Source: Lachnospiraceae bacterium
Lineage (GTDB): Bacteria > Bacillota > Clostridia > Lachnospirales > Lachnospiraceae
Assembly (NCBI GenBank): GCA_024697065.1
Contig: JAILGE010000018.1
Span: 1 to 62,058 of the forward strand
Reading direction: 5' to 3'
Length of the DNA: 62,058 bases
In this document: piece by piece, positions 3,710 to 21,246 of the stretch
How positions within the stretch are numbered: position 1 is the first letter of the stretch
How the letters are laid out: each line of letters opens with the position of its first letter
Position numbers and translations under genes: made by a program
The notes under the pieces: generated by a model
What the model was told of the DNA's origin: nothing
The model's database searches: none
What the model saw: the letters and a program-made list of their open reading frames with translations, nothing else

Positions 3710-5134
3710 CTAATTAATCACATTAATTCCAGATTTCTCCAATTGTTCATTTATCGCATCGTAATGTGTACTTGATATTAACACATAATATTCATCTTTG
3801 TTTCTTTCAAGAAAATCCGGAGATATAACCTCAATGCCACTCTCAACCGTACCCCATTTAGCCTTTGAATTATCGCAAAAATATGTAATACTAATCCCCA
3901 ATCTTTCAAGAATATTCTTGTACTCTCTTCCCATATTGCCCGAGCCGAAGCAAACCACCTTCTTTTCCTTTAATATACCTAAGGATTCTTCCTTTATTCC
4001 CAGTAAACTGATTGCAGCTTTTTTGTATACCTCACTTAACTGATTGGGAATACTGATGGATTGCGGACACCTTTTTGCACATTTTCCGCACTTTATACAA
4101 TTTTCCGCTCTGGATTCTACGGGAATGCAGTTAAAATAAAACTCGCCAAAATTCCTATATTGACTCGGAATCCCAAGCATCACGCTGTCATTATACTTTT
4201 GAAAGCACAAAGGGATATCTACTTTCCTTGGGCATTCCTTAAGACAATAACCACATGCCGAACACGGTACAGGCGATTTATCCTGTATCATCCTGACTAT
4301 CTCGGCATATAAATCATCCTTATCATCTTTAATCTTTTTTCCACCAAGTGTTTTTATGTTTTCTTCAAGTTCCGCTTCCTTCAGCGATCCAGATAAAACA
4401 ACTCTGACATTTTCCAATCGTTTAAAGAAAGACAGAGCAAATCCTGCCGGGGTGAAACCATTGTTACGCAACAGTTGTTTTGCTTCTTCAGGAAGGTTGA
4501 TCAGCCTGCCTCCACCGATTGGTTCCATTACAAACACCGGAATATTCCTATGGGTGCATAGTTCATAATTACTTTTTGCATGCTGTGCGTACCAATCGTA
4601 ATAGTTTATTTGAAGTTGACAAAAATCCCAACTATAATGATCCAATACCTTTTCTAATACTTCCTCATTATCATGAAAAGAAAAGCCAAGTTTTTTTATA
4701 TACCCCTTATCCTTAAGTTCCGATAAAACATCCATTACTTCATATTGTTTTATCATTTCAAAGTATCTGTTATTTACAGCATGGATCAAATAGAAATCAA
4801 TATAATCAACTCCAAGTCTTTCTAATTGAATTTCAAAAAGATTTTTAACATCCTCCTTCTTTGTTACCTTCCAAATCGGAAGTTTATCCGCGATAAAAAA
4901 AGTCTCCCGAGGATATCTGTCTACCAATTCACTCTTTATTATAGATTCTGATGTTCCTTTAATGTATTCAAATCCGGAATCAAAATAATTAATACCGGAT
5001 TCATAAGCTTTTTTTATTACTGAGCGAGCTGCTTGTGGAATCCTTCCGTCTGTATCTGCTTTAAAGCGCATTATTCCCAGCCCCATCCCGCTTACTATAG
5101 GCCGATCTGTTATTTCAATTCCAATATTACCCAT
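3710..5134 (-). CDS. Aldo-keto reductase fused to 2x[4Fe-4S] ferredoxin and a Rossmann-like module
   Basis: The protein has 474 residues. Residues ~1-285 form an aldo-keto reductase barrel with the catalytic set in context (FDSGFEY for Asp/Tyr, IADKLP for Lys, LIHAV for His). Two ferredoxin motifs, CSACGYCLKECP and CIKCGKCAKRCP, follow at ~295 and ~345. The last ~90 residues are a Rossmann-like module (VVCFGSGNMG, FCDNSK, VLISS). Electron flow between the clusters and a keto-sugar or the neighbouring radical SAM enzyme is plausible but inferred. Its ATG overlaps the end of the radical SAM gene by 8 nt, so the two are translationally coupled. Confidence 0.85.
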   Translation of the reverse strand: MGNIGIEITDRPIVSGMGLGIMRFKADTDGRIPQAARSVIKKAYESGINYFDSGFEYIKGTSESIIKSELVDRYPRETFFIADKLPIWKVTKKEDVKNLFEIQLERLGVDYIDFYLIHAVNNRYFEMIKQYEVMDVLSELKDKGYIKKLGFSFHDNEEVLEKVLDHYSWDFCQLQINYYDWYAQHAKSNYELCTHRNIPVFVMEPIGGGRLINLPEEAKQLLRNNGFTPAGFALSFFKRLENVRVVLSGSLKEAELEENIKTLGGKKIKDDKDDLYAEIVRMIQDKSPVPCSACGYCLKECPRKVDIPLCFQKYNDSVMLGIPSQYRNFGEFYFNCIPVESRAENCIKCGKCAKRCPQSISIPNQLSEVYKKAAISLLGIKEESLGILKEKKVVCFGSGNMGREYKNILERLGISITYFCDNSKAKWGTVESGIEVISPDFLERNKDEYYVLISSTHYDAINEQLEKSGINVIN

Positions 5135-6119
5135 TTATCTGCTTCCTTATTCTCTTAACAATTTCTTCTCTGTAATCATCTATATCATCAGGTTGATTCT
5201 GGGTGACATATTTACACTTATCACACAATAAACCTTCTTTTGATAATTCAAGCAAAGAGCAAAGCAGTTCATTTCTTTTCTTTCCATTCCAAATATCTGC
5301 CAATTTTTCTGTATTAATATTTCCAAGTCGCAAGACTCTTTTCCAATCAACAGAGCACGGCATTACATCTCCATTTGCGCTCAAGCAAAGGACCTTAAAC
5401 GGCTGGATACATACCTTTTTTGCTTTTTGATACTCTTCATTTTTATATCTTACCGCCCCATTTATAGCACCCGCACTGAATTCCGGCCAATTCTCTATAA
5501 CACTTTCAACATAAATATAATCACAAAACTCCCCGTATTCAGAGTAAAACTCTTCCTCACTTTCGGTTCCCATATTCGTGGTTTTAATATAAATCTTGGT
5601 GTTTTTCCGAATTGAATAGAATCTCTTCAGCTGTTCTTTAAAAGCGCTAAGATCAACTTTTCTGTTAGCAATCTTATAGAAAAGATCTTCATTGGTTGAT
5701 TCAAGTGATATCAATATCGTATCAAGACCGGCATTAACCAATTCAATTGCAAGTTCATCAGTTATCAAAAGACCATTGGTCGTTATCTCAACTCTTTCAA
5801 ACAGACCTGATTCTTTTGCCATTTTTACAAATAATGCAATATTAGTGTTAACCAGTGGTTCTCCAATACCAATAAATCTAAGCACTTTTATTTTATCCGG
5901 AAACTCTTTACACTGATCAATAAATAATCTAAAGGTTTCCAAACTCATAATATCCTGGGGAAAAAGCTTTCTAGCCTCTTTATCCCCACAAGGACAGAAT
6001 GAACACTCTAAATTACAATACCCTGATGTCTCCAATTGGATTACAAGCGGTGTGGCCAATGGAGCTTTCTCACCCAAATTCATTCTGTTTTTATTTAACA
6101 TATTACTAATTTCTGCCAT
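5127..6119 (-). CDS. Radical SAM enzyme with SPASM-type C-terminus
   Basis: With this start the protein has 330 residues. CNLECSFC (CX3CX2C) near residue 38 binds the SAM-cleaving [4Fe-4S] cluster, and GIGEPLV and EITTNG motifs follow. C-terminal cysteines (CIQPF..CLSANGDVMPC..CDKCKY) are typical of a SPASM domain with auxiliary clusters. I place the start at 6119 (MAEIS), not 36 nt earlier, because AAAGGGGGA lies 8 nt before it and the longer form would overlap neuC. Relatives modify peptides or sugars; in this locus a sugar or glycolipid step is likelier. The substrate is unknown. Confidence 0.85.
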   Translation of the reverse strand: MAEISNMLNKNRMNLGEKAPLATPLVIQLETSGYCNLECSFCPCGDKEARKLFPQDIMSLETFRLFIDQCKEFPDKIKVLRFIGIGEPLVNTNIALFVKMAKESGLFERVEITTNGLLITDELAIELVNAGLDTILISLESTNEDLFYKIANRKVDLSAFKEQLKRFYSIRKNTKIYIKTTNMGTESEEEFYSEYGEFCDYIYVESVIENWPEFSAGAINGAVRYKNEEYQKAKKVCIQPFKVLCLSANGDVMPCSVDWKRVLRLGNINTEKLADIWNGKKRNELLCSLLELSKEGLLCDKCKYVTQNQPDDIDDYREEIVKRIRKQING

Positions 6120-6138
6120 ATAATAATCCCCCTTTAGT

Positions 6139-7305
6139 TTAGAAACAAACTTCATTTATATAGTTCAATATTGCATTTGATGTCTCTTTTGTTTCAACAA
6201 ACTGCTTTTGAGTATTCCCATCTTTAACATTTTTTATTATGTTCATAAACTTTTCCGAACTATGTCCGTCACCATAATATGACGACTTAACTCTGTATTT
6301 ATCAACTTCTTTAATACATCTCAACACTTCACCTGTTGCTTCCTTACAGTGTTGGATATTCCTAATTGCATCAATCCTGTATCTGTTATTCTGCCTGGTT
6401 CCGATATCTATTGCCGGAACACCGTATACGCATGCCTCTCTTACCCCTGCACTGGAGTTACCGATTATATAATCAGCGTTTTTCAGCAGGCATAAAAAAG
6501 ATTCAAATTGAATGGAATCAAATACCATGAAGTGATCGTTATTCTCAAATCTTTTCCATTCTTTTCTTATAAATTCGCTTCCATTATCATTATTCGGCTT
6601 TATCACAATAAAATTATCACCGGATTCTATTACGGAGTCTGCGATCTGCTTTGCTTTTATATCCATATCATCACATGTTGTAACAGGGTGATATATGAGA
6701 ATCGCATATTTATCAAAAGAAACTGAAAGTGAACTTTTAACAGAAGCCAACGGTACGTCGTTTGATACCATAATATCGATATCCGGCGATCCAATAATAT
6801 GAATATCTTTTTCAGCCTCTCCCAGCTGCATCAAACGGAACTTAGCTTCATCATTGGCAACAAAATGAATATTACTCATCTTTGTAATGGCATGCCGCAT
6901 AAACTCATCCGCAGTACCGGTCACCTCTCCGCCTTCAATGTGAGCTACCATAATATTATTCATAACTCCGACTATAGCCCCTGCCAGCGGTTCAACCCGG
7001 TCCCCGTGAACAACGATAATATCCGGCTTAATCCTGTTAACGTAATCCGAGAACTTAACAATAGTTTCCGCAAGGTTTAATTCCATTTTGTCATAATGGA
7101 TATAATCTTCGGGTTTATAAATATTACGATACTTATCTGCTTCTATATCGCTTATTGTATATCCATATTCCTTAAGCAGATGCATACCTATAACAAATAT
7201 GTGATTATCAATCTGATCATCTTTTTCACATGCAATCATAAGCGGTTTCAGTTTTCCGTAATCCGCTCTTGTGCCGGTTAAATATACCACCCTTTTTTTG
7301 TTCAC
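6139..7305 (-). CDS. neuC: UDP-N-acetylglucosamine 2-epimerase (hydrolysing), NeuC type
   Basis: The protein has 388 residues. The N-terminus [18 protein letters not shown] is typical of NeuC/LegG hydrolysing epimerases. Further motifs are [22 protein letters not shown] and [11 protein letters not shown], which bind UDP in this GT-B fold. The family converts UDP-GlcNAc to ManNAc plus UDP, the first step of sialic acid synthesis. The start is a GTG at 7305 whose last two bases overlap the neuB TGA (GTGA), giving tight coupling; the upstream TTG in frame has no ribosome site. The pair NeuC-NeuB points to Neu5Ac or a close relative. Confidence 0.88.
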
Positions 7306-8345
7306 GACTCCACCATATTCCAATCTAAATGAACATCTTTACCAATATCACACTTAGCAATTTTACCTAAAAGCTTCTCGTAATCATCAGCCGGTATCTT
7401 TCCTGTCCCGGGTCTTTTTACCCAGATATTGTCTTTACCAAGTTTTTCTCCAGCCTTTATATCAGCAATTGAAACTACCGTTGCAAATGCAAAATCAATC
7501 GTAACCTGTTCCTCCGGAAGAGCACACTTTTCTCCTCCCCGCATCTTCGGAATCTCTTCGGCTGCCAAAAGCAGATTCTCAAGTTCCTTTTCATCCATAG
7601 AACAAACTATATCATTTCCCTGCCTGTCCATAGTATCCGTAAAATGTCTTTCTACAAGTGAAGCCCCCAAAGCAATTGCGGCTATACACGCATTATTATT
7701 GACCGTATGATCAGAAAGTCCTATCGGAGCCCCTTTAAAATGCTCCATCATTTCCGACATAGCCCCAAGCCTGACCTGTTCCGGCTTAGTCGGATATAGA
7801 TTAGTACAGTGCATCAACGCATAAGGAACATTTCTTTTTTCCATGATCTCAACCGTTTTATCTATACTTTCTATAGAGTTCATTCCAGTTGAAACTATCA
7901 TGGGCTTTCCGAATTCGGCCACATGCTCTATAAGCGGATAATTATTTAATTCACCCGAACCTATCTTGTATGCCTTGACTCCGAATTTCTCAAGTCTGTC
8001 AGCTGCAGCTCTGGAAAAAGGTGTACTGATAAACTCCATTCCCAGACTTTGAACATATTTCATGAATTCCTGCTCTTCATCTTCAGAAAGAGCACACTGC
8101 GCCATAACATCATATATGGAGATATCTGAATTACCGGGGATTACCTTCTTTGCCTCATGACTCATCTCATCTTCAACAACATGTGTTTGATGTTTGATAA
8201 GCCTGGCACCGGCTCTTGCTGCTGCATCCGCCATTTCAAATGCAATCTTTAACGAGCCACCATGATTGATCCCAATTTCAGGGATTACAAGGGGCTTACA
8301 CCCCTTTCCGATCTCTATTGTCCCGATTTTAAATTTTTCTTTCAT
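7302..8345 (-). CDS. neuB: Nonulosonic (sialic) acid synthase, NeuB type
   Basis: The protein has 347 residues: an N-terminal TIM barrel ([52 protein letters not shown]) and a C-terminal antifreeze-like SAF domain ([17 protein letters not shown]). The enzyme condenses phosphoenolpyruvate with ManNAc or a related hexosamine to give a free nonulosonic acid. ManNAc is the most likely acceptor because neuC directly follows. No CMP-transferase (neuA) is in the window. It follows the ThDP enzyme gene by 11 nt. Distinguishing NeuB from LegI or PseI needs a phylogeny. Confidence 0.9.
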
Positions 8346-8356
8346 CCTTTATACCC

Positions 8357-10126
8357 CTACTTGAAGTTTTTAAACAGGCAAGACTCATATTCGTCCTTGG
8401 TAAGAAAAGGTGCAAGGTCATCTATAGTCGGAGAAACCAGCTTACCACCTTCAACCTGTTTACTGGAAAGCCTTGGAATTATCGGATCCAATTCCTTCTG
8501 AACAAGATCAAGGATAGCCCGTCCTTTATATCCCAATATCCAGTCTATACCTTCATCAATATCCTTATCTTTATCTATCGCCTTATACGCAAACCCAAAT
8601 GTATCCGCCACCTTTTCAAATGAAGGGAAGCCTATTCCCGAATCATTTGTACAGCCTGCCAAAACGCCCCCAAAAAATCTCTGATGAGTTCCGACTATGG
8701 CCTGATATTTATTATTATCAAATAATATTATCTTTATAGGCAGATTGTTATATGCCATTGTCTGCAGCTCTTGCAGATTCATCATCATACTTCCTTCGCC
8801 TGTAGCACAATATACCTCTCCATTTTTGGCTATAGCTGCACCGATCGAAGCGGGGAGATCATACCCCATAGTACCGCAATTTACGTTGCCATACATCCTT
8901 TGTCCAGATTTAGCTATGCCACACTGAAGCATTGATACCGCTGCAGTATTATTTCCCAATACAACCACCGCGTCCTCAGGTGCTTTCTCCATGAATCTGT
9001 AAGAGAAATTATATGCCGAAATATTTTCGGTCTCTACCTTATCCCAATCATGAAACTTATTCTTGAGATACCTGCAATAATCACCCCATTTCACATCCAT
9101 ATTATCCAGTGTTATTTCCGCATCTCTGAGCGCTAATACAACATCTGCCAGATCAGCGTTGATAGCCAGATCAATATGAACAGTAGGTTTCTTCAACTCC
9201 TCCTTATCGGCATCAATAACTATCTTTCTGGAATCAGGTGAAAATGCCTCGAAATTAAAGCCAATCTGTTTAAATGAAAGTCTTGCTCCGAAAACCACAA
9301 GAAGATCTGCGTTTTGAACTATAAAATTACCGGCTCTGCTGCCAAATGTTCCAAACATACCAAAATACAGGTCATCATCCGGTGAAAAGTAATCAACGGT
9401 GCTGGTAGGGCAGATTACAGGAATATTTAACTTTTCTGCAATCTTTCTTAAGTCAGATAAAGCTCCTGATGTCCGCACACCTGATCCGGCAATGAGAACC
9501 GGTTTTTTAGCCTTCTTTAATTCTGTTTCGAGTTCATCAATCTTAAGATCAGCCTGATCATCTTCCTCATGATATGTTCTTAATTCATCAGTATCTATCG
9601 TCTGCCCCTGAATATCCAGAGGAACATCTATCCATACCGGCCCCCGTCTTCCGGTAAGAGCCAACTTATACGCTTTCTCCAGATGATAACGGATATCCTT
9701 GGCATCTGTAACCATAACGGCATATTTTGTCATTGGTTTTACCGATCTGACAATATAATACTCCTGCTCCCCAAACTGGCGAAGATCAAGCCCTGTGCTG
9801 TCTACCGTAATATCAGACCTTACCTGTCCTGATATTATCATGACCGGAAGACTGTCCTGCCAGGCACACAGAACGCCTGTGATCGCGTTTGTCCCCCCCG
9901 GGCCACTTGTCACGCATACTGCAGCCATTTTATTATTTATTCTGCTGTAACTCTCTGCAGCGATTGCACACGCTTGCTCATGGTGGTCATAGATCTTGTT
10001 AAGCCTTGATTCCAAAGCAAATGCATTATTTAGATGCATCGCGCCTCCGCCAACAACCGAAAACAGCTGTGTGATGTCATGCTCCACAAGAAATCTTGCT
10101 ATATAATCCGCTACTCTTATTTTCAT
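8357..10126 (-). CDS. ThDP-dependent enzyme, acetolactate-synthase/YerE-like
   Basis: The protein has 589 residues with the three-domain ThDP-enzyme plan: N-terminal PYR domain with catalytic Glu50 (HHEQAC) and TSGPGGTN, a central domain (VLIAGSGV), and a C-terminal PP domain. The Mg-ThDP motif reads GEGSMMMN near residue 440 where the family normally has GDG. Housekeeping acetolactate synthase is unlikely in this locus. YerE of Yersinia adds an acetyl unit from pyruvate to CDP-3,6-dideoxy-4-keto-glucose, and rfbG/rfbH in the same locus would make that acceptor. The YerE-like role is therefore my best inference, with other pyruvate or 2-oxoacid chemistry possible. Confidence 0.75.
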   Translation of the reverse strand: MKIRVADYIARFLVEHDITQLFSVVGGGAMHLNNAFALESRLNKIYDHHEQACAIAAESYSRINNKMAAVCVTSGPGGTNAITGVLCAWQDSLPVMIISGQVRSDITVDSTGLDLRQFGEQEYYIVRSVKPMTKYAVMVTDAKDIRYHLEKAYKLALTGRRGPVWIDVPLDIQGQTIDTDELRTYHEEDDQADLKIDELETELKKAKKPVLIAGSGVRTSGALSDLRKIAEKLNIPVICPTSTVDYFSPDDDLYFGMFGTFGSRAGNFIVQNADLLVVFGARLSFKQIGFNFEAFSPDSRKIVIDADKEELKKPTVHIDLAINADLADVVLALRDAEITLDNMDVKWGDYCRYLKNKFHDWDKVETENISAYNFSYRFMEKAPEDAVVVLGNNTAAVSMLQCGIAKSGQRMYGNVNCGTMGYDLPASIGAAIAKNGEVYCATGEGSMMMNLQELQTMAYNNLPIKIILFDNNKYQAIVGTHQRFFGGVLAGCTNDSGIGFPSFEKVADTFGFAYKAIDKDKDIDEGIDWILGYKGRAILDLVQKELDPIIPRLSSKQVEGGKLVSPTIDDLAPFLTKDEYESCLFKNFK

Positions 10127-10197
10127 TTCTTCTAACCTCTATATCCTTTTATTCCCGCTTATTGCAGGTTTAATCTATACAATAGTATCTTCTTACC

Positions 10198-11109
10198 CTA
10201 TCCATATACCCGTTTTATTGTTTCTTCAAACGATATTGCCGCTTTCCACCCGGTATCCTCAAAAATCTTAGATACAGACGGTGCCAGTGTAACGCGGGGA
10301 AACGATTCATCGCCATATTGAAACTCCACCCCCGGTGCATACATTTCTCTTAATATTTCGGTATAATACTTTAAAGGATGATAATCTCCATTTGCCACAT
10401 TATATATTTTCCCGTTTTTTCCTTTTTCGGCAAGCGCTATAAACGCCTCTGCGCATTCGCCGGCATCAAGATAATCCCAATCCTGTGTGGCAGCTGACAA
10501 TCTTATCCCTACATTTCCCCTCTCATTATTAATTCCAGCACTTTTGAGAGAACAAATAAGATCCGGAATCAGCCTCCCCGCCGGTTCATATTCTCCAATA
10601 AGTGAAAAGATGCGCCCCCAAACCCATTCCATTCCTGTAAGTTGCGCCTGCGCTCTTGACATCACACATTCCGCAACTTTAGCAGCACCATACATTGAAA
10701 AAGGATTCGTCTGGCGTTCTTCAGTGATAAGCCCTTCCGCAACACCATATTCAGCCTGTGAGCCTGTTCCTATAAACCTTCTGCATTCTAACGCCGCAGC
10801 AGCTTTCATCACAGAATTGATATCTTCTACATTGCCATAAGCAGCATATTCATCACTGCGTGTGCCGGGACGATTAGCCATATGGAAAAAAAACTCACAC
10901 TTCTCATCTATCTGTCTCGGAAGTGCACCAAAATCACTATCTTCAATTTCAATAATACGGATTTTTCCCGAAGTGGAAAGATCATTGATTCTTGCATTGT
11001 GAGCTGATCCACGTCTAACAACTGCATAGACATTATACCCATGCTCAGCCAGATGCTTTGTCAGATGAATTCCTGCAAATCCGGCCGCCCCCGTTACAAC
11101 CACATTCAT
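10198..11109 (-). CDS. Extended SDR (NAD-dependent epimerase/dehydratase or reductase)
   Basis: The protein has 303 residues. VVVTGAAGFAGIH gives the nucleotide-binding TGxxGxxG, GTGSQAEYG the catalytic Ser region, and MYGAAKVAE the YxxxK pair. A second lobe follows (DWDYLDAGECAEAFIAL, IYNVANGDYHPL). CDP-abequose/paratose synthases and YerF-type reductases that act on the 4-keto of CDP-dideoxy sugars are of this class, so reduction of the product of RfbH or of the ThDP enzyme is a reasonable proposal. It lies 71 nt before the ThDP gene on the same strand and just after a decayed membrane-protein gene. Confidence 0.8.
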   Translation of the reverse strand: MNVVVTGAAGFAGIHLTKHLAEHGYNVYAVVRRGSAHNARINDLSTSGKIRIIEIEDSDFGALPRQIDEKCEFFFHMANRPGTRSDEYAAYGNVEDINSVMKAAAALECRRFIGTGSQAEYGVAEGLITEERQTNPFSMYGAAKVAECVMSRAQAQLTGMEWVWGRIFSLIGEYEPAGRLIPDLICSLKSAGINNERGNVGIRLSAATQDWDYLDAGECAEAFIALAEKGKNGKIYNVANGDYHPLKYYTEILREMYAPGVEFQYGDESFPRVTLAPSVSKIFEDTGWKAAISFEETIKRVYG

Positions 11110-11203
11110 TAGCCTGTCACCTCATTATCATTTGTTAATTATATCATAACAAAGAGCATATAAGCTTCCTAAATATGAGTAAAAAATAATAATATTCTGC
11201 CCT

Positions 11204-12831
11204 TTACTTTTGTATACATTTGTTATCCATCTCATATATCAGTCTCTTATATTCAAAGCCTCTGAAGGAATATGACTTTTCTTCTACCACGTTAAATCTG
11301 TCCTTAACAAACAAAGCGATATCTTCTCCGGCCATTACGTTGTAGATCAGCGATGCTCTTCCATGATAAGATGAGTCATTTTCAAATGATCCCAGCGCCT
11401 GCGCATCAGACTGCTCAACAAAATCAAGTCACATATCTCCCGGCCTGTTTTTCACAGCATCCCTTATTCCCAGTCTGTCATTGTAAAGCTCTGCCCTAAT
11501 CGCATATTTTGCAGGCTCTGCAGGTGCAAATTCCTCAATCCCGTCAAAGAAACCGTAAGCGCCATACATAACCGGTATGAAAATGAGATCGCCGTCTTTA
11601 ACGGCATCTACAAGAGCAGAGTGGTAAACCACCTCTCCCCATTCGATCTGTCGGTTATATGTCATCCCGTCACCGTACATATATGTACTTATCATCGAAG
11701 CCTTTCCGATATCTGTTCCGCCGAATGCCAAACGGGATACAGGATCTACAGTTATGAAGCACTCAACAAAAAACAGTAAAACCAATACCGACTTTTAAAC
11801 AGTTGTTACAAGTATCATATTCTTATTCCTGACGTGTCCTGTTACAGCTGTAAACAAAAACAACATGAAGGGAACTGCCGGAAGATAATATCTGGCATTA
11901 TTATAGATTTTATATAAAGCAAGAAAAGCAATCATCACAGTAAGCACAGAACCGCATATACTTATTACAAGTGTTTTGGTCCATTCCCGTTTCTTATGCT
12001 TTCCTATAATGATCCCACCGATAGTTCCCGCAACTATTCCGATCCATATCATCCAGTTAAAACTAAAGCAGAAAGACAACCTTAAGTTTCTCTACAAGAT
12101 TCTCCCTGTCAAAAGCAAACCCTCCCCCGGCATAACTGCTTCCCATATTTGAGCCTCTGTCAGCTGATAAAAATGCCGCCAGCCATATAACGACAACCCC
12201 TGCCATTATCATCAATTTCTTCTCGTAAATGATCGTCTTAAATTTTTTTCCTTCTGTACGTCCTTCTATGAGATCGGCAATGATGACACCGATACATATC
12301 CCGCCAAAGACCAGGATCGCAGGTTCCTTGATAAAGCAGAAGAATAATGACAGGAATCCGAAACACCACCATTTCTTTTTGATGATCGAAAGAAGGATAA
12401 ATACAGAAAAACACATCATCAGATAATCCGAGCTTTGTGAATGAACCATTCCCAAGGGCCAGGGTGAAAATGCAAACAAAGATACCGGCAGAAAAATTTT
12501 TAATTACCGCAGTCTCATTGCTTAATGATTCCGTAATACGCCAAAGCAACATATGCTTAACAGATAAAGCAATATATTTCCAAAGATCATTCCAAGAAGA
12601 GCATCATTAAAAAATACAAGCTTCCATATCCTGCACCACAGCAGATAGCTGTAAGAGACGTGCCCAAAAAGTGACCATTCACTCCAGCCAAACAGTTGCA
12701 CAAATTCATAATTCTTTGCGCTGTCCCATCTCAGCTGGAACATTCCGCGATCAAAGCATAAGATAAAACAAAGTAGCAAAAAAATACTTTGAATCTATCC
12801 GGCCTTTTTAAATTTGTTTTAAGCTTCTCCA
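11204..12831 (-). pseudogene. Decayed multi-membrane (GT-C-like) protein gene
   Basis: Successive pieces in different frames read as one ~540-residue membrane protein: start MEKLKTNLKRP at 12831; a frameshift in a 7-base T-run (12778-12784); shifts near 12540, near the A/T-run at ~12495 and near 12080; an in-frame TAA at 11795-11797; an in-frame TGA at 11429-11431; and a final stop at 11204-11206. Hydrophobic stretches such as CFSVFILLSIIKK and the tail GRASLIYNVMAGEDIALFV resemble a glycosyltransferase-C or dolichyl-mannosyltransferase-like protein. Several independent lesions argue for true decay over one sequencing error. It sits between two intact genes of the locus. Confidence 0.8.
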
Positions 12832-12834
12832 TAC

Positions 12835-14529
12835 TCACCTTACAGCATCAAACGGGATCCACGAACCGGTCCCGCAATCATATATATATATTCCAATCAT
12901 CTCAGTAGCGCCGTAAATATCCAGATATGATACAACCCGGTTAATATAGTCATCCAGGTCTCCTGTATATGCCAGATTCCATCCCGGAGGAAAATTGCCC
13001 GAATATCCGTTTACAGTATACAGATCATTGGCCGAAGCTATCATCCAGCTTTTCATCTGTGTCGAATAACGATTTGAAATATCAGATCCGTCAAAAAGTA
13101 TCATTACCCTACAGTCATCAGGAGCCTGGGGAACAGTTGCAATACTATCCCTCATATCGGATATATCAAACTGGACCGGTATATCGCAAATATTTGAAGC
13201 GATCAGCAAAGCAACAACTATCACGCCTGCCACATGATTAAATTTACCTTTCGCCCTTATCGAATGGTCACATACGCAGGCCGTTACAATAGCTATAGGA
13301 AGGCTCATCATACCAAGGATCCTGCCGACAGCTCTGACAGAGCTTCCTCCGGGTATTATCTTTCTCAAAACGATCCACAACGAACTGTTTCCGAATTTCA
13401 AAAATATAAAAAAGCACAGCAGCGTGGAAACAGCCATGGCAGACATTACGCATAACCTGCTCTCGTTCTTTGATTCCTCTCTTCTTACATTCCTTATCAG
13501 CATTATCACAGCGAAAACAAACAGTAAAACAGTGATGACCGGATATCCGCTTGATACTTCAGCTTCAACAGTTTCCCTCCACATTTCCATTTCTGCCGAA
13601 AGACTATGTTTGACCATACTGTTCCACAGTCTCTCCAACGGAGCTTTCGAGATGGTCCTGAAGATATCGCTCCAGTCAGCGGAAAAGAGTGCTACTTCTT
13701 CATCCGAATATCCGCCACCAGATAAAGCAAGCATCGGAAGATAAACCTTGCAGAAGGGATAAATCCACCAGATCTGCGCGGCCAGACAAACAAACGTCTC
13801 TGCGATGTGATCCTTTATCCACTTAAGGATAGCCTTGCATTTCTTCCTGCAGATGATCACAAGGAAAACAGCTGTTAACCCCATCCAGATAGTCATGAAA
13901 TATCCCACATAAAACGCAGTCAGGAAAGACAATCCGTAAAACAGTATCGCTATAAATTCATGTAAATATCTTTTATATCTGTTATCCTTTTCTGAATCCG
14001 ATCGGTAATGGAAGATCCGCTCTATTGCCCAGAATAGGACAGCCATATAGGAAAATGAAAAGAATTGCGAATGCCCGGAAAATGAAACGAAAGAGCAACT
14101 GAAAAAAGATATTAATTCAGCCGCGATAATGTACATCTTTTTTATCCCGATATTCTTAAGGAGAAGCCATTGAAAAATCACTCCGATAAAATGCGTGATA
14201 ACAACAGTAATGATGTACGCAGAAAACAAATCGCATCCGGCCATACGTAACAATGAATGCAGCAAGCCTTCACCAAGCATCATGTCCGAACCGCCAAGCC
14301 ACATATTTACCGGCCAGAAAGCACGCATCTCGGTAAGTCCGTGGCCATATCTGAACACATCGTACCAATGGTCACATTCCATCATTATCAGTGCAGTATC
14401 TCCTCCGGGAAACTTATCATCCCAGATCAATCTCCGAAAAATAATACATTCCAAGATAACAAGGCCCGTCGCGACCAACAGCCATTCATATTTTTTTCTG
14501 TTATTATTCTCTGTTTGTTTTGATCTCAT
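12835..14529 (-). CDS. Multi-membrane protein, GT-C glycosyltransferase-like
   Basis: The protein has 564 residues with about ten hydrophobic segments. The first follows a short basic N-terminus (RKKYEW), and an acidic loop after it (FPGGDTALIMMECDHW) is where GT-C enzymes keep catalytic Asp residues. The last ~110 residues are soluble and would lie outside the membrane. It overlaps the YfhO-like gene upstream by 26 nt, and the pseudogene begins 4 nt after it. A lipid-linked sugar transferase acting on the outer face is the best reading, but I do not recognise a specific family. Confidence 0.7.
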   Translation of the reverse strand: MRSKQTENNNRKKYEWLLVATGLVILECIIFRRLIWDDKFPGGDTALIMMECDHWYDVFRYGHGLTEMRAFWPVNMWLGGSDMMLGEGLLHSLLRMAGCDLFSAYIITVVITHFIGVIFQWLLLKNIGIKKMYIIAAELISFFSCSFVSFSGHSQFFSFSYMAVLFWAIERIFHYRSDSEKDNRYKRYLHEFIAILFYGLSFLTAFYVGYFMTIWMGLTAVFLVIICRKKCKAILKWIKDHIAETFVCLAAQIWWIYPFCKVYLPMLALSGGGYSDEEVALFSADWSDIFRTISKAPLERLWNSMVKHSLSAEMEMWRETVEAEVSSGYPVITVLLFVFAVIMLIRNVRREESKNESRLCVMSAMAVSTLLCFFIFLKFGNSSLWIVLRKIIPGGSSVRAVGRILGMMSLPIAIVTACVCDHSIRAKGKFNHVAGVIVVALLIASNICDIPVQFDISDMRDSIATVPQAPDDCRVMILFDGSDISNRYSTQMKSWMIASANDLYTVNGYSGNFPPGWNLAYTGDLDDYINRVVSYLDIYGATEMIGIYIYDCGTGSWIPFDAVR

Positions 14530-16657
14530 TTTTGTCCGTTATATTTTTGTCGATTTCATTCCTGTTTTTTATGATCCTATATACAAGTATAACGATCAGT
14601 GTTCCGATAACTGATATCAAAACCGCTGTCGTAAATGCGTGATCTTCATATACCACGCTGACATGGTGCTTCCCCGCAGGACAATTAATGACCATGCTTC
14701 CCAGATAAACACCTCTTTCAACCGGTACTTCTTTTCCGTCAATATACCCGTGAAAATTCTTTTGTCTCACATAATTAAAAACTATATAACCATTTTCAAA
14801 AGCTTCATCAGTATTGACTTCAAGAGAATTAACCTTCTGTATGAAGTCTTTAACTTCACCAAGGTATTCTCCATTTTCCGAGATCACATACGCTAGCGGC
14901 ATTGCATTGGGATCATAGAAGAGCACTCTCCCCTTATCTTCTGCCACCTTCTCTATCCCCAATGAAGGAAAGAAATCTTCATCTTCCGACCTTGCGACAT
15001 AAAAAGATACGCCCTGCAGCCTTAACTGATAGATTTCCGCCTCATCCAGGGAGCTGATCATTCCTGTATTATCCGTCTGATCTTCCAAAATATCTCTGTA
15101 TTCCGCAGACTCTGTTGTAACAAGTTGATCATATCCCGACCTTGAATTCAGGCCATAATAAGTAGCGAAATTAGCATCAAGTCCTGCAGGTGCATCACCC
15201 GTGATCCTCCAGGTATCAACATCAACACTGATATTTACTCCGGCTTTTGATATATACCTTTTTTCCCCTATAATGCTGCAAAAGGGATCTGAATAAGGCT
15301 TATCCCCTGAATTCTCAAATACAATAGCTCTGGCAGGAAAAGCGAAATATAAAACAGAAAAATTAGCGATAACGCACAGTACAAGAAACGCGCCGACAGC
15401 CTTCGACGCTTTTCCTTTACTTCTCTTCTGCACAATATTGATCAGATAAGATGCCCCGGCCGCACCAACAGCTATCATGAAGAAATTGACGAATATCAGT
15501 ATTTTAAACGGCCATCTGAAACGATTGATCACGGGGATATAATAAACTATCCGGTTAAAAAGCATACTGAAGGTCCACAGCGAAGAAACCAGCAATCCCG
15601 GAAGCATGATAAAGCAGCAATCCTTTTCATCGCTTCTTTTTTTGCGATCCTTGATCAATAAGAACACAGCTACCACAAAAGAAATCACCATAATATATCC
15701 GATATGGCCTGTCACAGTCTGCATTCTCATCAAGCCATCATCGCCGGATATCCCCTGACTCAGGTCATAATCGTGCATCCTTGAAGTAAACGGATAGATC
15801 AGTGAAAACAGCCATGATCCGAAATCCGATGACAGTGAGAAGAATGTATCAAAATCCAGATTGCCGCTTCTGTCTGCAGAATTCTGCATTGCAAAATACA
15901 TGGGTAAAAGTAAAGGAAGGCTCCATATTCCCATTGGAATGAACGACAGTATATATTTTTCGGCCTTTGGAAGCACCGTTTTTTTATCTTCTGTTGAAAC
16001 AAACAGATATGTAAGTGCGGCCATAACTTCAAAAATAAAAGAATAGATAAAGAATTGAGGATGTCCGATATACAAACACATGAGTCTTGGCACAGATGCG
16101 ATCAGAATACTCTTTATACTGAATTTATCCAGCATATTAATATCCGCAAGGATCATTAAAGGAAAGCATCCTGCCGTCATTATTATGATGATCCAGTTCG
16201 CGCCTATTACTATCGAAAAAGCATTGAATGCCCACGAAATGCCACCTGTTACCGCCGCGATCTCATTTAGCTTCAGCTTCTTAAGAAGATAAAACATAGA
16301 AATCCCACCGATCAAAGAATAGATGAACGCAAGGATCTCGATCATTGCACAACTGTGACCGAATAATATGTGACTAATTATCCACGCAAGATAAACAGCA
16401 GGATTTAAAACTCCCGACTGTCCCTTATCAAGATGCGGTATGCCTGAAAACTGATGAAAATTATATAATGCCAGCTCACCCGAAAAAGCACTTCTAACTG
16501 TATGTTCAAACGAACAAACATACCAATCCGCATTATCATCCTGTAAAAAATAATACGGATGTGTTATCTCACATCCGATAAATAAAAAAACTATCGAAAG
16601 AAAAACGCATATTACGGCTGCATTTCTCGTAGCAAGCTTTTTCAAGTCAAATTTCAT
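14504..16657 (-). CDS. YfhO-family multi-membrane protein (GT-C-like)
   Basis: The start at 16657 (MKFDLKK) follows GGGGAG and gives 717 residues; the longer frame would overlap the methyltransferase gene. It has about twelve membrane segments, RFRWPFKIL in a loop, and a C-terminal extracellular part with FHGYIDGKEVPV, CPAGKHHVSVVYEDHAF and a last membrane helix, as in the YfhO family. B. subtilis YfhO takes GlcNAc from the undecaprenyl carrier made by CsbB and puts it on lipoteichoic acid. With the GT2 at 486-1430 a similar outside-face decoration is likely; sugar and acceptor are unknown. Confidence 0.8.
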   Translation of the reverse strand: MKFDLKKLATRNAAVICVFLSIVFLFIGCEITHPYYFLQDDNADWYVCSFEHTVRSAFSGELALYNFHQFSGIPHLDKGQSGVLNPAVYLAWIISHILFGHSCAMIEILAFIYSLIGGISMFYLLKKLKLNEIAAVTGGISWAFNAFSIVIGANWIIIIMTAGCFPLMILADINMLDKFSIKSILIASVPRLMCLYIGHPQFFIYSFIFEVMAALTYLFVSTEDKKTVLPKAEKYILSFIPMGIWSLPLLLPMYFAMQNSADRSGNLDFDTFFSLSSDFGSWLFSLIYPFTSRMHDYDLSQGISGDDGLMRMQTVTGHIGYIMVISFVVAVFLLIKDRKKRSDEKDCCFIMLPGLLVSSLWTFSMLFNRIVYYIPVINRFRWPFKILIFVNFFMIAVGAAGASYLINIVQKRSKGKASKAVGAFLVLCVIANFSVLYFAFPARAIVFENSGDKPYSDPFCSIIGEKRYISKAGVNISVDVDTWRITGDAPAGLDANFATYYGLNSRSGYDQLVTTESAEYRDILEDQTDNTGMISSLDEAEIYQLRLQGVSFYVARSEDEDFFPSLGIEKVAEDKGRVLFYDPNAMPLAYVISENGEYLGEVKDFIQKVNSLEVNTDEAFENGYIVFNYVRQKNFHGYIDGKEVPVERGVYLGSMVINCPAGKHHVSVVYEDHAFTTAVLISVIGTLIVILVYRIIKNRNEIDKNITDKNEIKTNRE

Positions 16658-16658
16658 T

Positions 16659-17378
16659 TTACTCCCCTGCTTTGTTCTCTTTTTCGGCATACAGATAGTA
16701 TTGCCCGCCCAAAGGGCATCTGGAAAGCCGCCGCTCATACTTCAGCATTCCTTTGAAGAGTTTTTTCCTCGGGAAAAAGATAGAATAATACAGATCTGTC
16801 TTAACATTGTTATTTTTCAGATATTTAATTAATCTCCCGGGCTTTACCAGTTTAACCCCTTCATCAAAAATACAATCGTGAACAACCTTTCGCGTAAGCG
16901 GATTATAGGGATTATGTTCAAAAATCACTATCTTCCCACCGGGTTTTATAATCCTGAGCAATTCCCGTATTATATGCGGACGGTCTTCCGGTTCAATGTG
17001 ATGGAGTACACAAGCCAGATAGATTACGTCAAAGCTGTCATCTTCAAACGGCATATTTACTCCATCATAACTGATAAACCGATATTTGCCTCCATAGCGC
17101 TTATCGGCCACCTCCAGACTAACTGTTGAGATATCAAGACCTATATATTCATATTCCGGATAGTGTTTGGTAATATATTCGGCAGAACTTCCGTCTCCGC
17201 AGCCAAAATCAAGCCACTTGCCCCCCTTTTTCGGGATCACTCCATCCTGTTCAAGTAATTTCAATTTAAACTCACAAAAATAGGCACTGTCTACACCGCT
17301 GACATTATGGATATTCTGTGTATGGATCCCTCTATAATCACTTACATATTTATCAAAAACAGGTGTCTGTTTTTTCAT
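16659..17378 (-). CDS. Class I SAM-dependent methyltransferase
   Basis: The protein has 239 residues. Motif I is WLDFGCGDGSSAEY near residue 56, then YIGLDIS, a post-I VIYLACVLHHI and IIKPGGKIVIFEHNPYN, which is the UbiE/Methyltransf_11 pattern. It is encoded between rfbG and the YfhO-like gene, its stop 1 nt before that gene's start and its stop region supplying the ribosome site. A methyl group on a sugar of the surface polymer is the likely product; nothing in the sequence names the acceptor. Confidence 0.8.
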   Translation of the reverse strand: MKKQTPVFDKYVSDYRGIHTQNIHNVSGVDSAYFCEFKLKLLEQDGVIPKKGGKWLDFGCGDGSSAEYITKHYPEYEYIGLDISTVSLEVADKRYGGKYRFISYDGVNMPFEDDSFDVIYLACVLHHIEPEDRPHIIRELLRIIKPGGKIVIFEHNPYNPLTRKVVHDCIFDEGVKLVKPGRLIKYLKNNNVKTDLYYSIFFPRKKLFKGMLKYERRLSRCPLGGQYYLYAEKENKAGE

Positions 17379-17441
17379 CAGGATTTTTCTCCATTAGGTA
17401 TCAACCGAATCATCTGCTTATCACCGGCTAAATATCCGGCA

Positions 17442-18530
17442 TCATTTCATACCGACAAATTCGTCAATCTGCTTTTTCATCACAGCATTAATATTATCCG
17501 CCGACGGTTCCTCAAGCCAGGCCTTAGTCCATTCGACAGTCTTCTCCACAGCCTTTTCAATATGCCACGCAGGCTTCCATCCGAAGACGCTTTTTACCAG
17601 GGATGTATCTAACTTAAGGAAATTTGCCTCATGAGGCGCATTCGGATCAACAGCAGCGATCTCAGATTTAAATTTCGGACCATAATATTTTCCGAACAGA
17701 TTCACGAGTTCTCCCGTCGTAACACAGTCGCAGTCATCAGGTCCCACATTATAGAATCCCGCCTTAGATGTATCCTCATACTGCGCTGCTGCTATAATCA
17801 TATATGTAAATAAGGGTTCAAGCACATGCTGATAAGGTCTGGTGCTGAGCGGATTTCTTATAACAATAGCCTCACCGCTCTGAACAGCCCTTACACAGTC
17901 CGGGATTATCCTGTCAGCCGCGAAATCTCCACCGCCTATCACATTGCCCGCCCTGGCTGTTGAGACACCAAGCGCAGGTTCCTGATTGTAGAATGAATTG
18001 ATATAACTGTGCGTTACAAGCTCGGAACATGATTTGCTGTTACTGTAGGGATCGAAACCGTCAAGAGGCTCATTTTCCCTGTAACCGTAACACCATTCAT
18101 TATTCTTATAAACCTTGTCGGTGGTTACGTTCAAAAACGACCTTACAGAGTCCATGTGAAGTCTTACCGATTCACATATATTTACCGTTCCCATTACATT
18201 GGTTTCATATGTAAGTCTGGGCTCCTTGTAGGAAGTCCTTACTATAGGCTGGGCAGCAAGATGAAAAACTATCTCAGGCTTAACTTCATCAAACACCTTA
18301 TCAAGTTTTTCAAAATCCCTTATATCTCCTTCAACCGAATGGATCGCTTTTTCCAGATCAGCTATCCCGTAAAGATTCATTGATGTAGGTGCCGGGAGAC
18401 TGTATCCCGTCACAACCGCACCGGCATCAGACAGGATCTTGATCAGCCATGAGCCTTTAAACCCTGTATGGCCTGTTACGAGAACTCTTTTCCCTTTATA
18501 AAAATCGCAAACCGACTTTTTATCCATCAT
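17442..18530 (-). CDS. rfbG: CDP-glucose 4,6-dehydratase
   Basis: The protein has 362 residues. VLVTGHTGFKGSWL is the characteristic glycine-rich start of this SDR subgroup; HLAAQPIVRTSY, NVTTDKVYKN, YSNSKSCSE (YxxxK) and RAGNVIGGGDFAADRIIPD are further hallmarks of RfbG/DdhB. It converts CDP-glucose to CDP-4-keto-6-deoxyglucose with bound NAD. It lies 10 nt after rfbH. The cytidylyltransferase that makes CDP-glucose (rfbF) is not in the window. Confidence 0.93.
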   Translation of the reverse strand: MMDKKSVCDFYKGKRVLVTGHTGFKGSWLIKILSDAGAVVTGYSLPAPTSMNLYGIADLEKAIHSVEGDIRDFEKLDKVFDEVKPEIVFHLAAQPIVRTSYKEPRLTYETNVMGTVNICESVRLHMDSVRSFLNVTTDKVYKNNEWCYGYRENEPLDGFDPYSNSKSCSELVTHSYINSFYNQEPALGVSTARAGNVIGGGDFAADRIIPDCVRAVQSGEAIVIRNPLSTRPYQHVLEPLFTYMIIAAAQYEDTSKAGFYNVGPDDCDCVTTGELVNLFGKYYGPKFKSEIAAVDPNAPHEANFLKLDTSLVKSVFGWKPAWHIEKAVEKTVEWTKAWLEEPSADNINAVMKKQIDEFVGMK

Positions 18531-18540
18531 CCACTCCGAT

Positions 18541-19881
18541 TTATTTGCGCCTTACCGCATCACTTATCACTTCGATCATATAATCAAGTTTCTCTTTAGT
18601 CATTCCGGGATATACCCCCACCCAGAACGAATTATTAACTATAAAATCCGAATTATCCAAAGATCCGACAACTCTGTAAGCATCGGTATTTCTGATCTGA
18701 TCAAAGCAGGGATGTCTGGTTATATTACCGGAGAAGAGAAGTCTGGTCTGTATATTGTGGTCTTCAATAAATCTGGTGACATCATTTCTGTCAAGTCCTG
18801 TCTCGGGTCTAACACTGATAAGGAAACCAAACCACGAAGGATCCGAATCCGGTTCGGCTTCGGGAAGGATCAGCCTATCCGACAATCCCGACAGGTTATC
18901 CTTAAGATATTTCCAGTTTGCCTTTCTGGCTTTAATAAAATCCGGGAATTTCTTTAACTGTTCAACGCCCACCGCAGCCTGCATGTCCGTAACCTTGATA
19001 TTGTAACCGAAATGACTGTAAACATATTTGTGATCATAACCGTGGGGGAGCTCACTCCAGTCACCGTCAAACCTGTGTCCGCAGAGATTATCCTTACCCG
19101 AAGGGCATACACAGTCACGTCCCCAATCTCTGAATGACAGAAGAAGCCTGCTGAGAAGAGGATCACTTGTATAAACAGCTCCCCCCTCTCCCATCGTCAT
19201 ATGATGAGGCGGATAAAAGGATGATGTTCCGATATCTCCCCATGTACCCGTAAATCTGCTTTCTCCCATAGTATACTTTGATCCGAGAGCATCGCAGTTA
19301 TCCTCTACAAGCCACAAATCATATTTATCACAGAATTCCTTTACAGCCTTTATATTAAAAGGATTACCCAGTGTATGTGCGATCATGACGGCTTTTGTCT
19401 TGTCCGGATCATAAGCATCCTCAAGCTTTGTCACGTCAATATTGTATTGCGGTATCGTAACGTCCACGAATACCGGAACTGCACCGTATTGCAAAATGGG
19501 ATTTATTGTTGTAGGGAATCCGCAGGCAACAGTGATCACCTCATCGCCTTTTTTTATCTGTTTCTTCCCAAGTTCCGGCGCTGTCAAAGCAGTAAAAGCA
19601 AGCAGGTTTGCCGAGCTTCCGCTGTTTACCAGATGGACGAATCTGGCCCCGATCCATTCACCGAAATTCTTTTCAAACTCGTTGCTAAATCTCCCTGTTG
19701 TAAGCCAAAAATCAAGTGTTGCATCTGTAAGAGACTGCATCTCTTTCTCATCAAACACTCTGGATGCGTAATTGATCCTGTCTCCGGGTTTAAAAACTGT
19801 TTTTTCTTCTTTAAACTGATGATAATATTCCCCAACCAGTTTCTTTATCTCTGCTCTCGCCTGTTCCTCATTCTCCCACAT
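18541..19881 (-). CDS. rfbH: CDP-4-keto-6-deoxyglucose 3-dehydratase (E1)
   Basis: The protein has 446 residues. It is a PLP-fold sugar aminotransferase relative in which the usual PLP lysine is replaced: the segment reads FYPPHHMTMGEGG, with the His that marks RfbH/DdhC. A CVCPSGKDNLC cluster (C-x-C-x7-C) with an upstream DNCDALG Cys would bind the [2Fe-2S] centre. It removes the C3 hydroxyl of CDP-4-keto-6-deoxyglucose through a PMP radical route that needs an E3 reductase (RfbI/DdhD), not found in the window. It sits between the flippase gene and rfbG. Confidence 0.93.
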   Translation of the reverse strand: MWENEEQARAEIKKLVGEYYHQFKEEKTVFKPGDRINYASRVFDEKEMQSLTDATLDFWLTTGRFSNEFEKNFGEWIGARFVHLVNSGSSANLLAFTALTAPELGKKQIKKGDEVITVACGFPTTINPILQYGAVPVFVDVTIPQYNIDVTKLEDAYDPDKTKAVMIAHTLGNPFNIKAVKEFCDKYDLWLVEDNCDALGSKYTMGESRFTGTWGDIGTSSFYPPHHMTMGEGGAVYTSDPLLSRLLLSFRDWGRDCVCPSGKDNLCGHRFDGDWSELPHGYDHKYVYSHFGYNIKVTDMQAAVGVEQLKKFPDFIKARKANWKYLKDNLSGLSDRLILPEAEPDSDPSWFGFLISVRPETGLDRNDVTRFIEDHNIQTRLLFSGNITRHPCFDQIRNTDAYRVVGSLDNSDFIVNNSFWVGVYPGMTKEKLDYMIEVISDAVRRK

Positions 19882-19944: not shown

Positions 19945-21246
19945 CTATTCCGAAATACTATTTGGATTTCTATGTTTAATCCCACGCTCAAATCCGGCAA
20001 AAACTGCCAACATAGCTATAAATAAATATACCATAAGCAGCGCTGCCGTTAAAGAAAAAACAACAGATCCGCCCATGATCCCATGCAGCCTCACAGCCTT
20101 ATTCATAGCTATGATCTCTGCCGCGGTTGTGATCAGATATCCCGTCATGATCATATTCTGTCTTCTGAATATCGTTAGAACACTCATCAGGAAATTACCG
20201 TATGCCAACGCACCGCTTCCTAACATCAGTACATAGAATTCCTGTTTGAGTCCCGACAGATCCGTCGAATACAGGATCGACAGGAATGGTATTCCTAATA
20301 GCCCGGCACCCAATATAATAAGGACAACAGCCCCCAGAATGAGAAATGATTGCTTTCTAACTGACTTTTTCAATAAATCCGCCTCTTCTTTCTGATATTG
20401 AACAGCCATTCCGTTCAATACGGGAAGATACAGGAACTGGCATATCAGACTTGCGAAAAATACCGGCATGCTTATAAAACCGAAATTGGCCTGATCAACA
20501 TTCGTCATAAAGGAATCGATGGAATACTTTGGCGCGTTGATCTGATAAAAACCGATAAATGTGGCAAGGAACAAAGGAAAGCAATCTTTAAGCAGCATGG
20601 GCAATGTGTGTACAGAGTCATCCGATTTAACAGCAGCGCCATCCTTAACTCTATTCCCAAATGTCATGTTTGCAAACCTGATGGTAACAATTGTTACGAA
20701 TAGGGACACCGCCGTTGTCAAAGCGGTGGCAGCCAGTACACTGCCGCCAAAGCAGATACACAGCACGAAAGATACGATTATCGCAAGCATATGCACCGTC
20801 ATGCATTTTCCCGCAATATCGAGGCGACCTGCCTGCTGATACTTCCCATGATAAACATCCTCTATGGAATCTACAGCTTTCATCACGCACATCAGAAATA
20901 TTATCCATGCCTTTTCATCTGTATAGGGCTGTGTAAATCTCTTATATAAAACATATATAAGCCCTGCGGCAACCATCACTACAGTAGTGATCACCCTGGA
21001 TATGAAATACTTTCTCATGCTGTATTTCTGCAGCGTATCCGTAACCTGATAATTACGCATCCCATACTTACCAATCATAAGCATGAGATTTGCAACCGAA
21101 TATGCTAATGTAAAAACACCGGCATCATCCATCGTCATTTTTCTGGAGATGGCCATCAGGATAAAAACCGATTGAAATGCATTAAGCATTCCACCGGCTG
21201 TATTATATATAAAGCTGTCTCTTTCAATCTTTGTCTTGTCCATCAC
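19945..21246 (-). CDS. Polysaccharide flippase, Wzx/MATE-like (MOP superfamily)
   Basis: The protein has 433 residues with about twelve hydrophobic segments, a short polar N-terminus (MDKTKIERDSFIYN) and an early GGMLNAFQS segment as in Wzx/RfbX proteins. It would move lipid-linked oligosaccharide across the membrane. It is the promoter-proximal intact gene of the polysaccharide locus: only a hairpin/terminator (21275-21307) and a possible TATAAT (21310-21315, minus) separate it from the pilin gene. The next gene, rfbH, begins 63 nt later. Confidence 0.82.
   Translation of the reverse strand: MMDKTKIERDSFIYNTAGGMLNAFQSVFILMAISRKMTMDDAGVFTLAYSVANLMLMIGKYGMRNYQVTDTLQKYSMRKYFISRVITTVVMVAAGLIYVLYKRFTQPYTDEKAWIIFLMCVMKAVDSIEDVYHGKYQQAGRLDIAGKCMTVHMLAIIVSFVLCICFGGSVLAATALTTAVSLFVTIVTIRFANMTFGNRVKDGAAVKSDDSVHTLPMLLKDCFPLFLATFIGFYQINAPKYSIDSFMTNVDQANFGFISMPVFFASLICQFLYLPVLNGMAVQYQKEEADLLKKSVRKQSFLILGAVVLIILGAGLLGIPFLSILYSTDLSGLKQEFYVLMLGSGALAYGNFLMSVLTIFRRQNMIMTGYLITTAAEIIAMNKAVRLHGIMGGSVVFSLTAALLMVYLFIAMLAVFAGFERGIKHRNPNSISE

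Follow-up and report, generated by a model that had tools for sequence, protein, structure and literature searches.

A YerE-like carboligase next to NeuB in a Lachnospiraceae locus: a sialic-acid-like molecule as a possible donor for a branched surface sugar

Among described systems, the closest is that of YerE, the thiamine diphosphate (ThDP) carboligase of yersiniose formation in Yersinia pseudotuberculosis, which belongs to the chemistry of CDP-3,6-dideoxy-4-keto-glucose, according to a review of YerE-like enzymes (PMC12247030). The same text describes ErwE (erwiniose) and MMAR_2332 (caryophyllose) as preferring longer, hydroxylated keto-acid donors, with ErwE favoring 4-hydroxy-2-oxo acids and not using pyruvate, and credits alpha-aurantose, a C-branched sugar of Spirochaeta aurantia, to the putative YerE-like enzyme SpirE (PMC12247030). 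JanthE, the YerE-like enzyme of Janthinobacterium sp. HH01 deposited as 8rph, takes 4-hydroxy-2-oxovalerate as donor with benzaldehyde (PMC12188165). Here we describe a locus in a 62,058-nucleotide stretch of Lachnospiraceae DNA (JAILGE010000018.1, one whole contig, hereafter the window) in which a ThDP enzyme of this class is encoded next to a NeuB-family synthase (Table 1). The window is like the YerE system in having a ThDP carboligase linked to CDP-3,6-dideoxy-4-keto-glucose, and differs from it in its GEG motif, in the adjoining NeuB, in an rfbF that lies elsewhere in the genome, and in that no E3 reductase (RfbI) was found. We suggest, with a probability of roughly 0.55, that a sialic-acid-like molecule and a deoxy sugar are joined here into a large C4-branched surface sugar, the NeuB product serving as donor for the ThDP enzyme.

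Comparison with known proteins indicates that the ThDP enzyme is very probably YerE-like and acts, by prediction, on a CDP sugar. Its best match among PDB sequences was JanthE (332.9 bits, residues 2-584), followed by an acetohydroxyacid synthase (231.7 bits, residues 3-528), and the C-terminal tail that it has in common with JanthE lies outside the span of that next-best match. When an AlphaFold2 model (mean pLDDT 92.2) was searched with Foldseek, JanthE chains took ranks 1-6 (TM-score 0.92-0.93 by query length, 33% identity); acetohydroxyacid synthases in the best 50 rows scored 0.81-0.88, a range that also held one further JanthE chain. The YerE-like rows, JanthE included, were separate from acetolactate synthases with a support of 99 in a quick tree of 128 rows, which covers ThDP proteins of 560 to 730 amino acids, one copy per locus and loci before L243. 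In this tree, one ThDP protein from the window's family is identical to the one of 'Bacterium C-53', and another neighbors the one of Lachnospiraceae bacterium A4, in keeping with a Lachnospiraceae relative. On the tree, the structure match and the tail we reject a housekeeping acetolactate synthase. The first-pass annotation had put forward YerE logic for this locus and asked whether phylogeny would place the enzyme with IlvB; it groups with JanthE instead. JanthE is thus the closest solved relative in both sequence and fold, although only 33% identical and located in a different part of the tree, among enzymes linked to DmpG and DmpF.

Residue E50, which we take to be the catalytic glutamate, is invariant in the alignment. 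The Mg-ThDP motif reads GEG instead of GDG, as had been noticed before, and because the same motif recurs in six others among 61 compared ThDP genes (L072, L075, L078, L079, L080 and L088), it looks like a family variant rather than damage. The motif pattern gave no match in three of these 61 genes (L100, L101 and L104), and JanthE itself has CDG at this position (PMC12247030). In the window's family, 124 of 299 genomes have a match to the ThDP enzyme at 1e-60; 96 were counted as YerE-like, a hand-picked set in which full-length or split matches were kept and matches of about 30% identity over roughly residues 6-550 were left out.

The acceptor is indicated by RfbH, which scored above its cut-off in 99 of the 299 genomes. 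RfbH and a YerE-like gene occurred together in 89 genomes, the YerE-like gene alone in 7, RfbH alone in 10 and neither in 193 (Fisher p ~2e-55, uncorrected for relatedness); with all 124 ThDP-matching genomes, the corresponding counts were 91, 33, 8 and 167. In many loci rfbF, rfbG, rfbH, the ThDP gene and a short-chain dehydrogenase/reductase (SDR) gene are grouped. The strong co-occurrence and the shared loci support CDP-3,6-dideoxy-4-keto-glucose as acceptor, in line with the earlier proposal. RfbH of the window keeps the catalytic histidine of E1 (in place of lysine) and four cysteines (196, 257, 259 and 267) that presumably correspond to the cluster-ligand motif of E1, and in these features it is like the E1/SpnQ 3-dehydratases. 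The same pattern was found in 58 of 59 E1-type open reading frames (ORFs) of the compared loci, the exception being a 300-residue ORF cut at the locus end. For this count the cysteine spacing was widened to X56-62, since X57 matched only 11 of 73 ORFs, most of which carry a three-residue insertion.

Of the yersiniose pathway set, rfbF, rfbG and rfbH are present in the source genome (2.69 Mb, completeness 99.84%), whereas no E3 was found. Both rfbF and rfbI had correctly been placed outside the window by the first-pass annotation, which counted a genome without them against its proposal; rfbF lies on another contig (C12:26363-27133, 373.6 bits, cut-off 300.25), and scanning the genome for FAD_binding_6, a domain of E3, gave no match. 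Among 33 genomes (this one and 32 with RfbH in the examined locus), 20 had no FAD_binding_6 match and 13 had one. These held 14 genes, and an E3 elsewhere in family genomes was rejected on the seven scanned, five of which carry a PyrK-type Fe-S domain and two a C-terminal Fer2; the other seven were judged by sequence start only. E1 has a dedicated E3, in contrast to what we found here, but the missing match is tolerable given the precedent of SpnQ, which is described as working with ferredoxin or flavodoxin reductase pairs (PMC8987622). The surroundings of rfbF (L044, G000:C12:17001-37000, with rfbF at 9342-10139) contain, by eye, two flagellin-like and several glycosyltransferase-like genes, so the CDP sugar could also be used for flagellin glycosylation.

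The donor is suggested by what lies next to the ThDP gene. In the window neuB adjoins it across an 11 bp gap and overlaps neuC by 22 bp. Six NeuB residues that we take to be in the active site (E23, K51, K127, H213, E232 and H234) are identical across all 14 aligned NeuBs. We compared the neighborhoods of 141 loci, 61 from the window's family and 80 named ones, and found several proteins that could supply a keto acid. An HMGL-type protein resembling 4-hydroxy-2-oxovalerate aldolase, the main aldolase of the set, occurred in 33 loci (the one scanned gave 97.5 bits for PRK08195, under the cut-off of 229), and a HAD phosphatase family occurred in 20, 19 of them with this aldolase. DmpG was present in five loci, in four of these together with DmpF (five proteins scanned, above cut-offs), an HpcH/HpaI aldolase near the ThDP gene in three, and NeuB in 25, including the window. 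No locus among the 111 YerE-like tree rows holds two of NeuB, the main aldolase and DmpG, and 18 further loci of the window's genus comprised 11 with the aldolase, two with NeuB and none with both. Over these 129 loci, NeuB (27) and the main aldolase (44) thus never coincide, with 9.2 shared loci expected (hypergeometric 2e-6, uncorrected for relatedness). The supplier labels require 22 changes on the tree, against 52.9 when shuffled, and the window's ThDP enzyme belongs to a seven-member clade (support 100) whose loci all have NeuB. Three loci with the HpcH aldolase were tallied as having no supplier, as was L093, where a longer overlapping ORF hid a NeuB-like stretch (tblastn, PF03102).

In 13 of the 25 NeuB loci no other ORF stands between NeuB and the ThDP gene, and NeuC accompanies NeuB in the window, L046, L048, L051, L168 and L204. 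The order rfbF-rfbG-rfbH-neuB-ThDP occurs in Chromobacterium (L202) and Dechloromonas (L221). A cupin domain is fused to NeuB in L202, L198 and L302; it matches D-lyxose isomerase at 21.1 to 27.3 bits, only slightly above the cut-off of 20.8, and would fit an isomerase making the aldose substrate. L302, from the window's own genus, has the order ThDP-neuB/cupin-HAD, the HAD protein belonging to the aldolase-linked family (272 bits), and lies beside genes that resemble, by eye, the 30-40 kb part of the window. Given that this HAD family is otherwise paired with the aldolase, NeuB appears to stand in for that enzyme in L302.

Other arrangements were seen as well. One genome carries three YerE-like genes and three strong NeuBs within ~60 kb (G104:C1:1318800-1378500; L046, L047 and L095). 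In L200, L208 and L209 the surroundings are of another kind: the ThDP gene and NeuB stand beside a hotdog-like protein, FabZ-like by eye, which in L200 and L208 is preceded by a small carrier-protein-like ORF. L093, L094 and L095 have, near the ThDP gene, a short NeuB (276 amino acids in L094, 294 in L095) with an accompanying protein, which in L094 combines a KdsC-like phosphatase part with a GmhA-like isomerase part; this hints at a phosphorylated sugar substrate.

An ordinary nonulosonate pathway requires a CMP-synthetase. The source genome has one CTP-transferase gene of family PF02348, which is PseF (271.2 bits, cut-off 205.7), and NeuA was not found by this search. Its other NeuB-family gene is PseI (476.1 bits, cut-off 340.25); because PseI and PseF pair, the window NeuB would be left without an activating partner. 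We asked how widely the number of strong CTP-transferases, KdsB apart, equals the number of strong NeuBs once those in the ThDP locus are subtracted (KdsB identity was checked for nine genes and assumed for two, L312 and L313). This rule fits nine of 12 family genomes, is ambiguous in G060 and fails in two, with a surplus of one in G160 and a deficit of one in G286; in 15 named genomes, several of them incomplete, it fits 12 and fails in three, with a surplus of one in G343 and a deficit of one in each of G335 and G338. All three strong NeuBs of G104 (96% complete) belong to the ThDP cluster, and this genome gave no match to PF02348; the Chromobacterium genome has a single NeuB, within the rfbFGH-ThDP run, and only KdsB as CTP-transferase. 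A CTP-transferase is nearby in none of the 13 loci with directly adjacent NeuB and in three of all 25 NeuB loci, compared with six of 12 control NeuBs outside ThDP loci (Fisher 0.005 and 0.036, respectively). Three of these few controls have a ThDP gene at a distance of 12-20 kb, and two are PseI, at least one with PseF elsewhere.

From these comparisons we infer the following route. RfbF, RfbG and RfbH would make CDP-3,6-dideoxy-4-keto-glucose, with RfbH drawing electrons from a general ferredoxin or flavodoxin, which we propose because no E3 was found. NeuC would release N-acetylmannosamine (ManNAc) from UDP-GlcNAc, and NeuB would condense it with phosphoenolpyruvate to a nonulosonic acid; since NeuC would supply free ManNAc, no phosphatase would be needed, and none was seen among the ORFs near neuC. 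The opened NeuB product has a C1 carboxyl, a C2 ketone, a C3 methylene and a C4 hydroxyl, so that its open form is a 4-hydroxy-2-oxo acid. The YerE-like enzyme would decarboxylate this acid and add the remaining eight-carbon acyl unit to C4 of the CDP sugar, the SDR would reduce the new ketone, and the product would have a 14-carbon skeleton (eight plus the six of the hexose). The GT2 glycosyltransferase and the membrane proteins may then pass the branched sugar to a lipid carrier and into a surface polymer. Alpha-aurantose is probably a branched tetradecose, in which case its carbon count would agree with the sum 6+8. The proposed donor is like those of ErwE and MMAR_2332 in being longer and hydroxylated, and differs from them in identity. 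A sialic-type acid as acyl donor for C-C bonds did not turn up in the open-access literature, although Krug et al., who surveyed >200 YerE-like enzymes in silico in 2024, may cover part of this; the words sialic, neuraminic and nonulosonic are absent from the review (PMC12247030).

Several observations weigh against the NeuB product as donor. The window NeuB reaches 373 bits with TIGR03569, under the equivalog cut-off of 399.65, so it is assigned to the NeuB family, its exact identity as sialate synthase lying below equivalog level. Nonulosonic acids are mostly cyclic, and the open keto form is scarce. No residue pattern at the JanthE hot-spot positions singles out the window enzyme or indicates its donor, 48 of the 111 YerE-like tree rows lack all three tallied suppliers, and the neuC-neuB-ThDP order of the window was found in none of the 18 genus loci. 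A nearby CTP-transferase is likewise missing for six of the 12 control NeuBs, G343 has a NeuB beside the ThDP gene plus an unclassified CTP-transferase, and PseF might accept another nonulosonate. In L074, from the same clade as the window, a CMP-synthetase-like protein lies 4.8 kb from NeuB, which is itself 7.4 kb from the ThDP gene, and in L205 and L217 a CMP-synthetase-like gene is within 12 bp of NeuB. L205 also has, next to its ThDP gene, a short HMGL-like protein that falls outside the aldolase cluster; with a CMP-synthetase-like gene 12 bp away, the NeuB of L205 seems to belong to an ordinary CMP pathway.

The best-surviving alternative is a yersiniose-like pathway in which pyruvate provides a two-carbon branch and NeuB and NeuC serve a separate sugar, and we consider it unlikely. 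Pyruvate is the donor of YerE and one of several accepted by JanthE (PMC12247030; PMC12188165), no aldolase was seen in the window, and the tree rows lacking a tallied supplier fit this explanation, although their enzymes may instead be fed by suppliers encoded at a distance. Such a separate use of NeuB is hard to reconcile with the genome, in which no NeuA was found, with the 11 bp between neuB and the ThDP gene, with the seven of seven NeuB rows in the window's clade, and with the finding that NeuB never occurs together with the main aldolase. The two-carbon branch of the first-pass annotation is doubtful, since neighborhood and tree point to a keto acid made by NeuB; neuB and neuC, which it mentioned as neighbors, are indeed there and look like part of the same pathway. 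Less probable still is that NeuB and NeuC make ordinary sialic acid, activated by PseF or an unseen NeuA, while the ThDP enzyme takes its keto acid from central metabolism. PseF is present, a gene could be missing from the contigs of a genome 99.84% complete, and L074, L205 and L217 combine NeuB with CMP-synthetase-like genes near YerE-like genes, but PseI and PseF are already paired in the source genome, and neither the three NeuBs in the ThDP cluster of G104 nor the sole NeuB in the rfbFGH-ThDP run of Chromobacterium has a CTP-transferase other than KdsB to activate its product. That the ThDP enzyme is a surplus acetolactate synthase, or that its acceptor is some other ketone, is very improbable in view of the RfbH co-occurrence, the tree and structure match and the tail common to JanthE beyond the next-best match, even though RfbG and RfbH are encoded ~7 kb away and seven genomes have a YerE-like gene and no RfbH above the cut-off.

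The remainder of the locus can be described briefly. The genes from GT2 to SDR form a tightly packed minus-strand run (spacings -22 to +71 bp), beyond which lie ~1.7 kb of short ORFs, two membrane proteins, a methyltransferase, rfbG, rfbH and the flippase-like gene. The assignments of rfbG, rfbH, the ThDP enzyme, SDR and neuB/neuC made at first pass were all confirmed by profile matches, whereas the YfhO-type transferases were not, as both large membrane proteins lack a Pfam match above cut-off. The GT2 cluster is present in 68 of the 141 compared loci, and SDR cluster members in 40 of 61, mostly ~30% identical. The aldo-keto reductase/4Fe-4S protein may, as a guess, reduce a ketone of the side chain or pass electrons to RfbH; its C-terminal stretch has a weak NeuD-like match (TIGR03570, 21.5 bits, cut-off 160.8), and Pau7, an aldo-keto reductase, is described as performing the side-chain reduction in paulomycin (PMC4753412). 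A 24% relative of this protein lies near the ThDP gene in L073, and the radical SAM/SPASM cluster is also found near the YerE-like genes of L051, L073, L168 and L180. The interval 11112-12830 (minus strand), flanked by the genes of the SDR and of the first large membrane protein, has no long ORF and three short minus-strand ORFs, one with weak GtrII/DUF2079 matches under cut-off, and resembles a membrane gene that has decayed or whose frame is disrupted. The start of the window is a piece of an ORF, transposase-like by eye.

Table 1. Predicted genes of the locus, with positions in the window and the matches behind each assignment
Feature	Coordinates	Strand	Basis
GT2 glycosyltransferase, polyprenyl-phosphate type by inference	486..1430	-	PF00535 91 bits; lowest-coordinate gene of packed run
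S-adenosylmethionine (SAM) methyltransferase	1463..2626	-	PF13489 78.5 bits
FkbM-type methyltransferase	2641..3696	-	PF05050 56.9 bits
Aldo-keto reductase fused to 4Fe-4S domains	3710..5134	-	PF00248 and Fer4 matches
Radical SAM/SPASM protein	5127..6155	-	PF04055, PF13186
NeuC, UDP-GlcNAc 2-epimerase (hydrolysing)	6139..7323	-	TIGR03568 376.2 bits, cut-off 235.9
NeuB-family synthase	7302..8345	-	PF03102 236.6 bits
YerE-like ThDP carboligase (predicted)	8357..10126	-	Sequence, tree and predicted-structure matches
Extended SDR, predicted branch ketoreductase	10198..11109	-	PF01370 112.2 bits; best PDB match 2pk3
Membrane protein, 564 aa, possibly GT-C	12835..14529	-	No Pfam family above cut-off
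Membrane protein, 744 aa, possibly GT-C	14504..16738	-	No Pfam family above cut-off
SAM methyltransferase	16659..17378	-	PF08241 81.1 bits
RfbG, CDP-glucose 4,6-dehydratase	17442..18530	-	TIGR02622 425.6 bits, cut-off 278.45
RfbH/E1, CDP-4-keto-6-deoxyglucose 3-dehydrase	18541..19881	-	PRK15407 708.4 bits, cut-off 423; PDB 3bcx 522.1 bits
Polytopic membrane protein, flippase-like by eye	19945..21246	-	No Pfam family above cut-off; clusters with proteins of L069, L082 and L176

Beyond the window, it is an even call whether bacteria of several phyla use the NeuB family to supply YerE-like enzymes, spending sialic- or legionaminic-type acids as carbon donors for C14 branched sugars instead of activating them to CMP sugars, and whether such loci are modular, with one acceptor module (RfbFGH) and exchangeable suppliers (the HMGL aldolase with HAD, DmpG/DmpF, the HpcH aldolase or NeuB). 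SpirE and RhopE are listed in the review as having no ketone acceptance shown so far (PMC12247030), and our proposal, if true, points to donors worth offering them. The genes beside YerE-like enzymes would then predict branch length, and sialic-type acids would gain a role in the formation of C-C bonds, as acyl donors. Surface sugars of 14 carbons would then be expected as a class, in gut bacteria as well as in other phyla.

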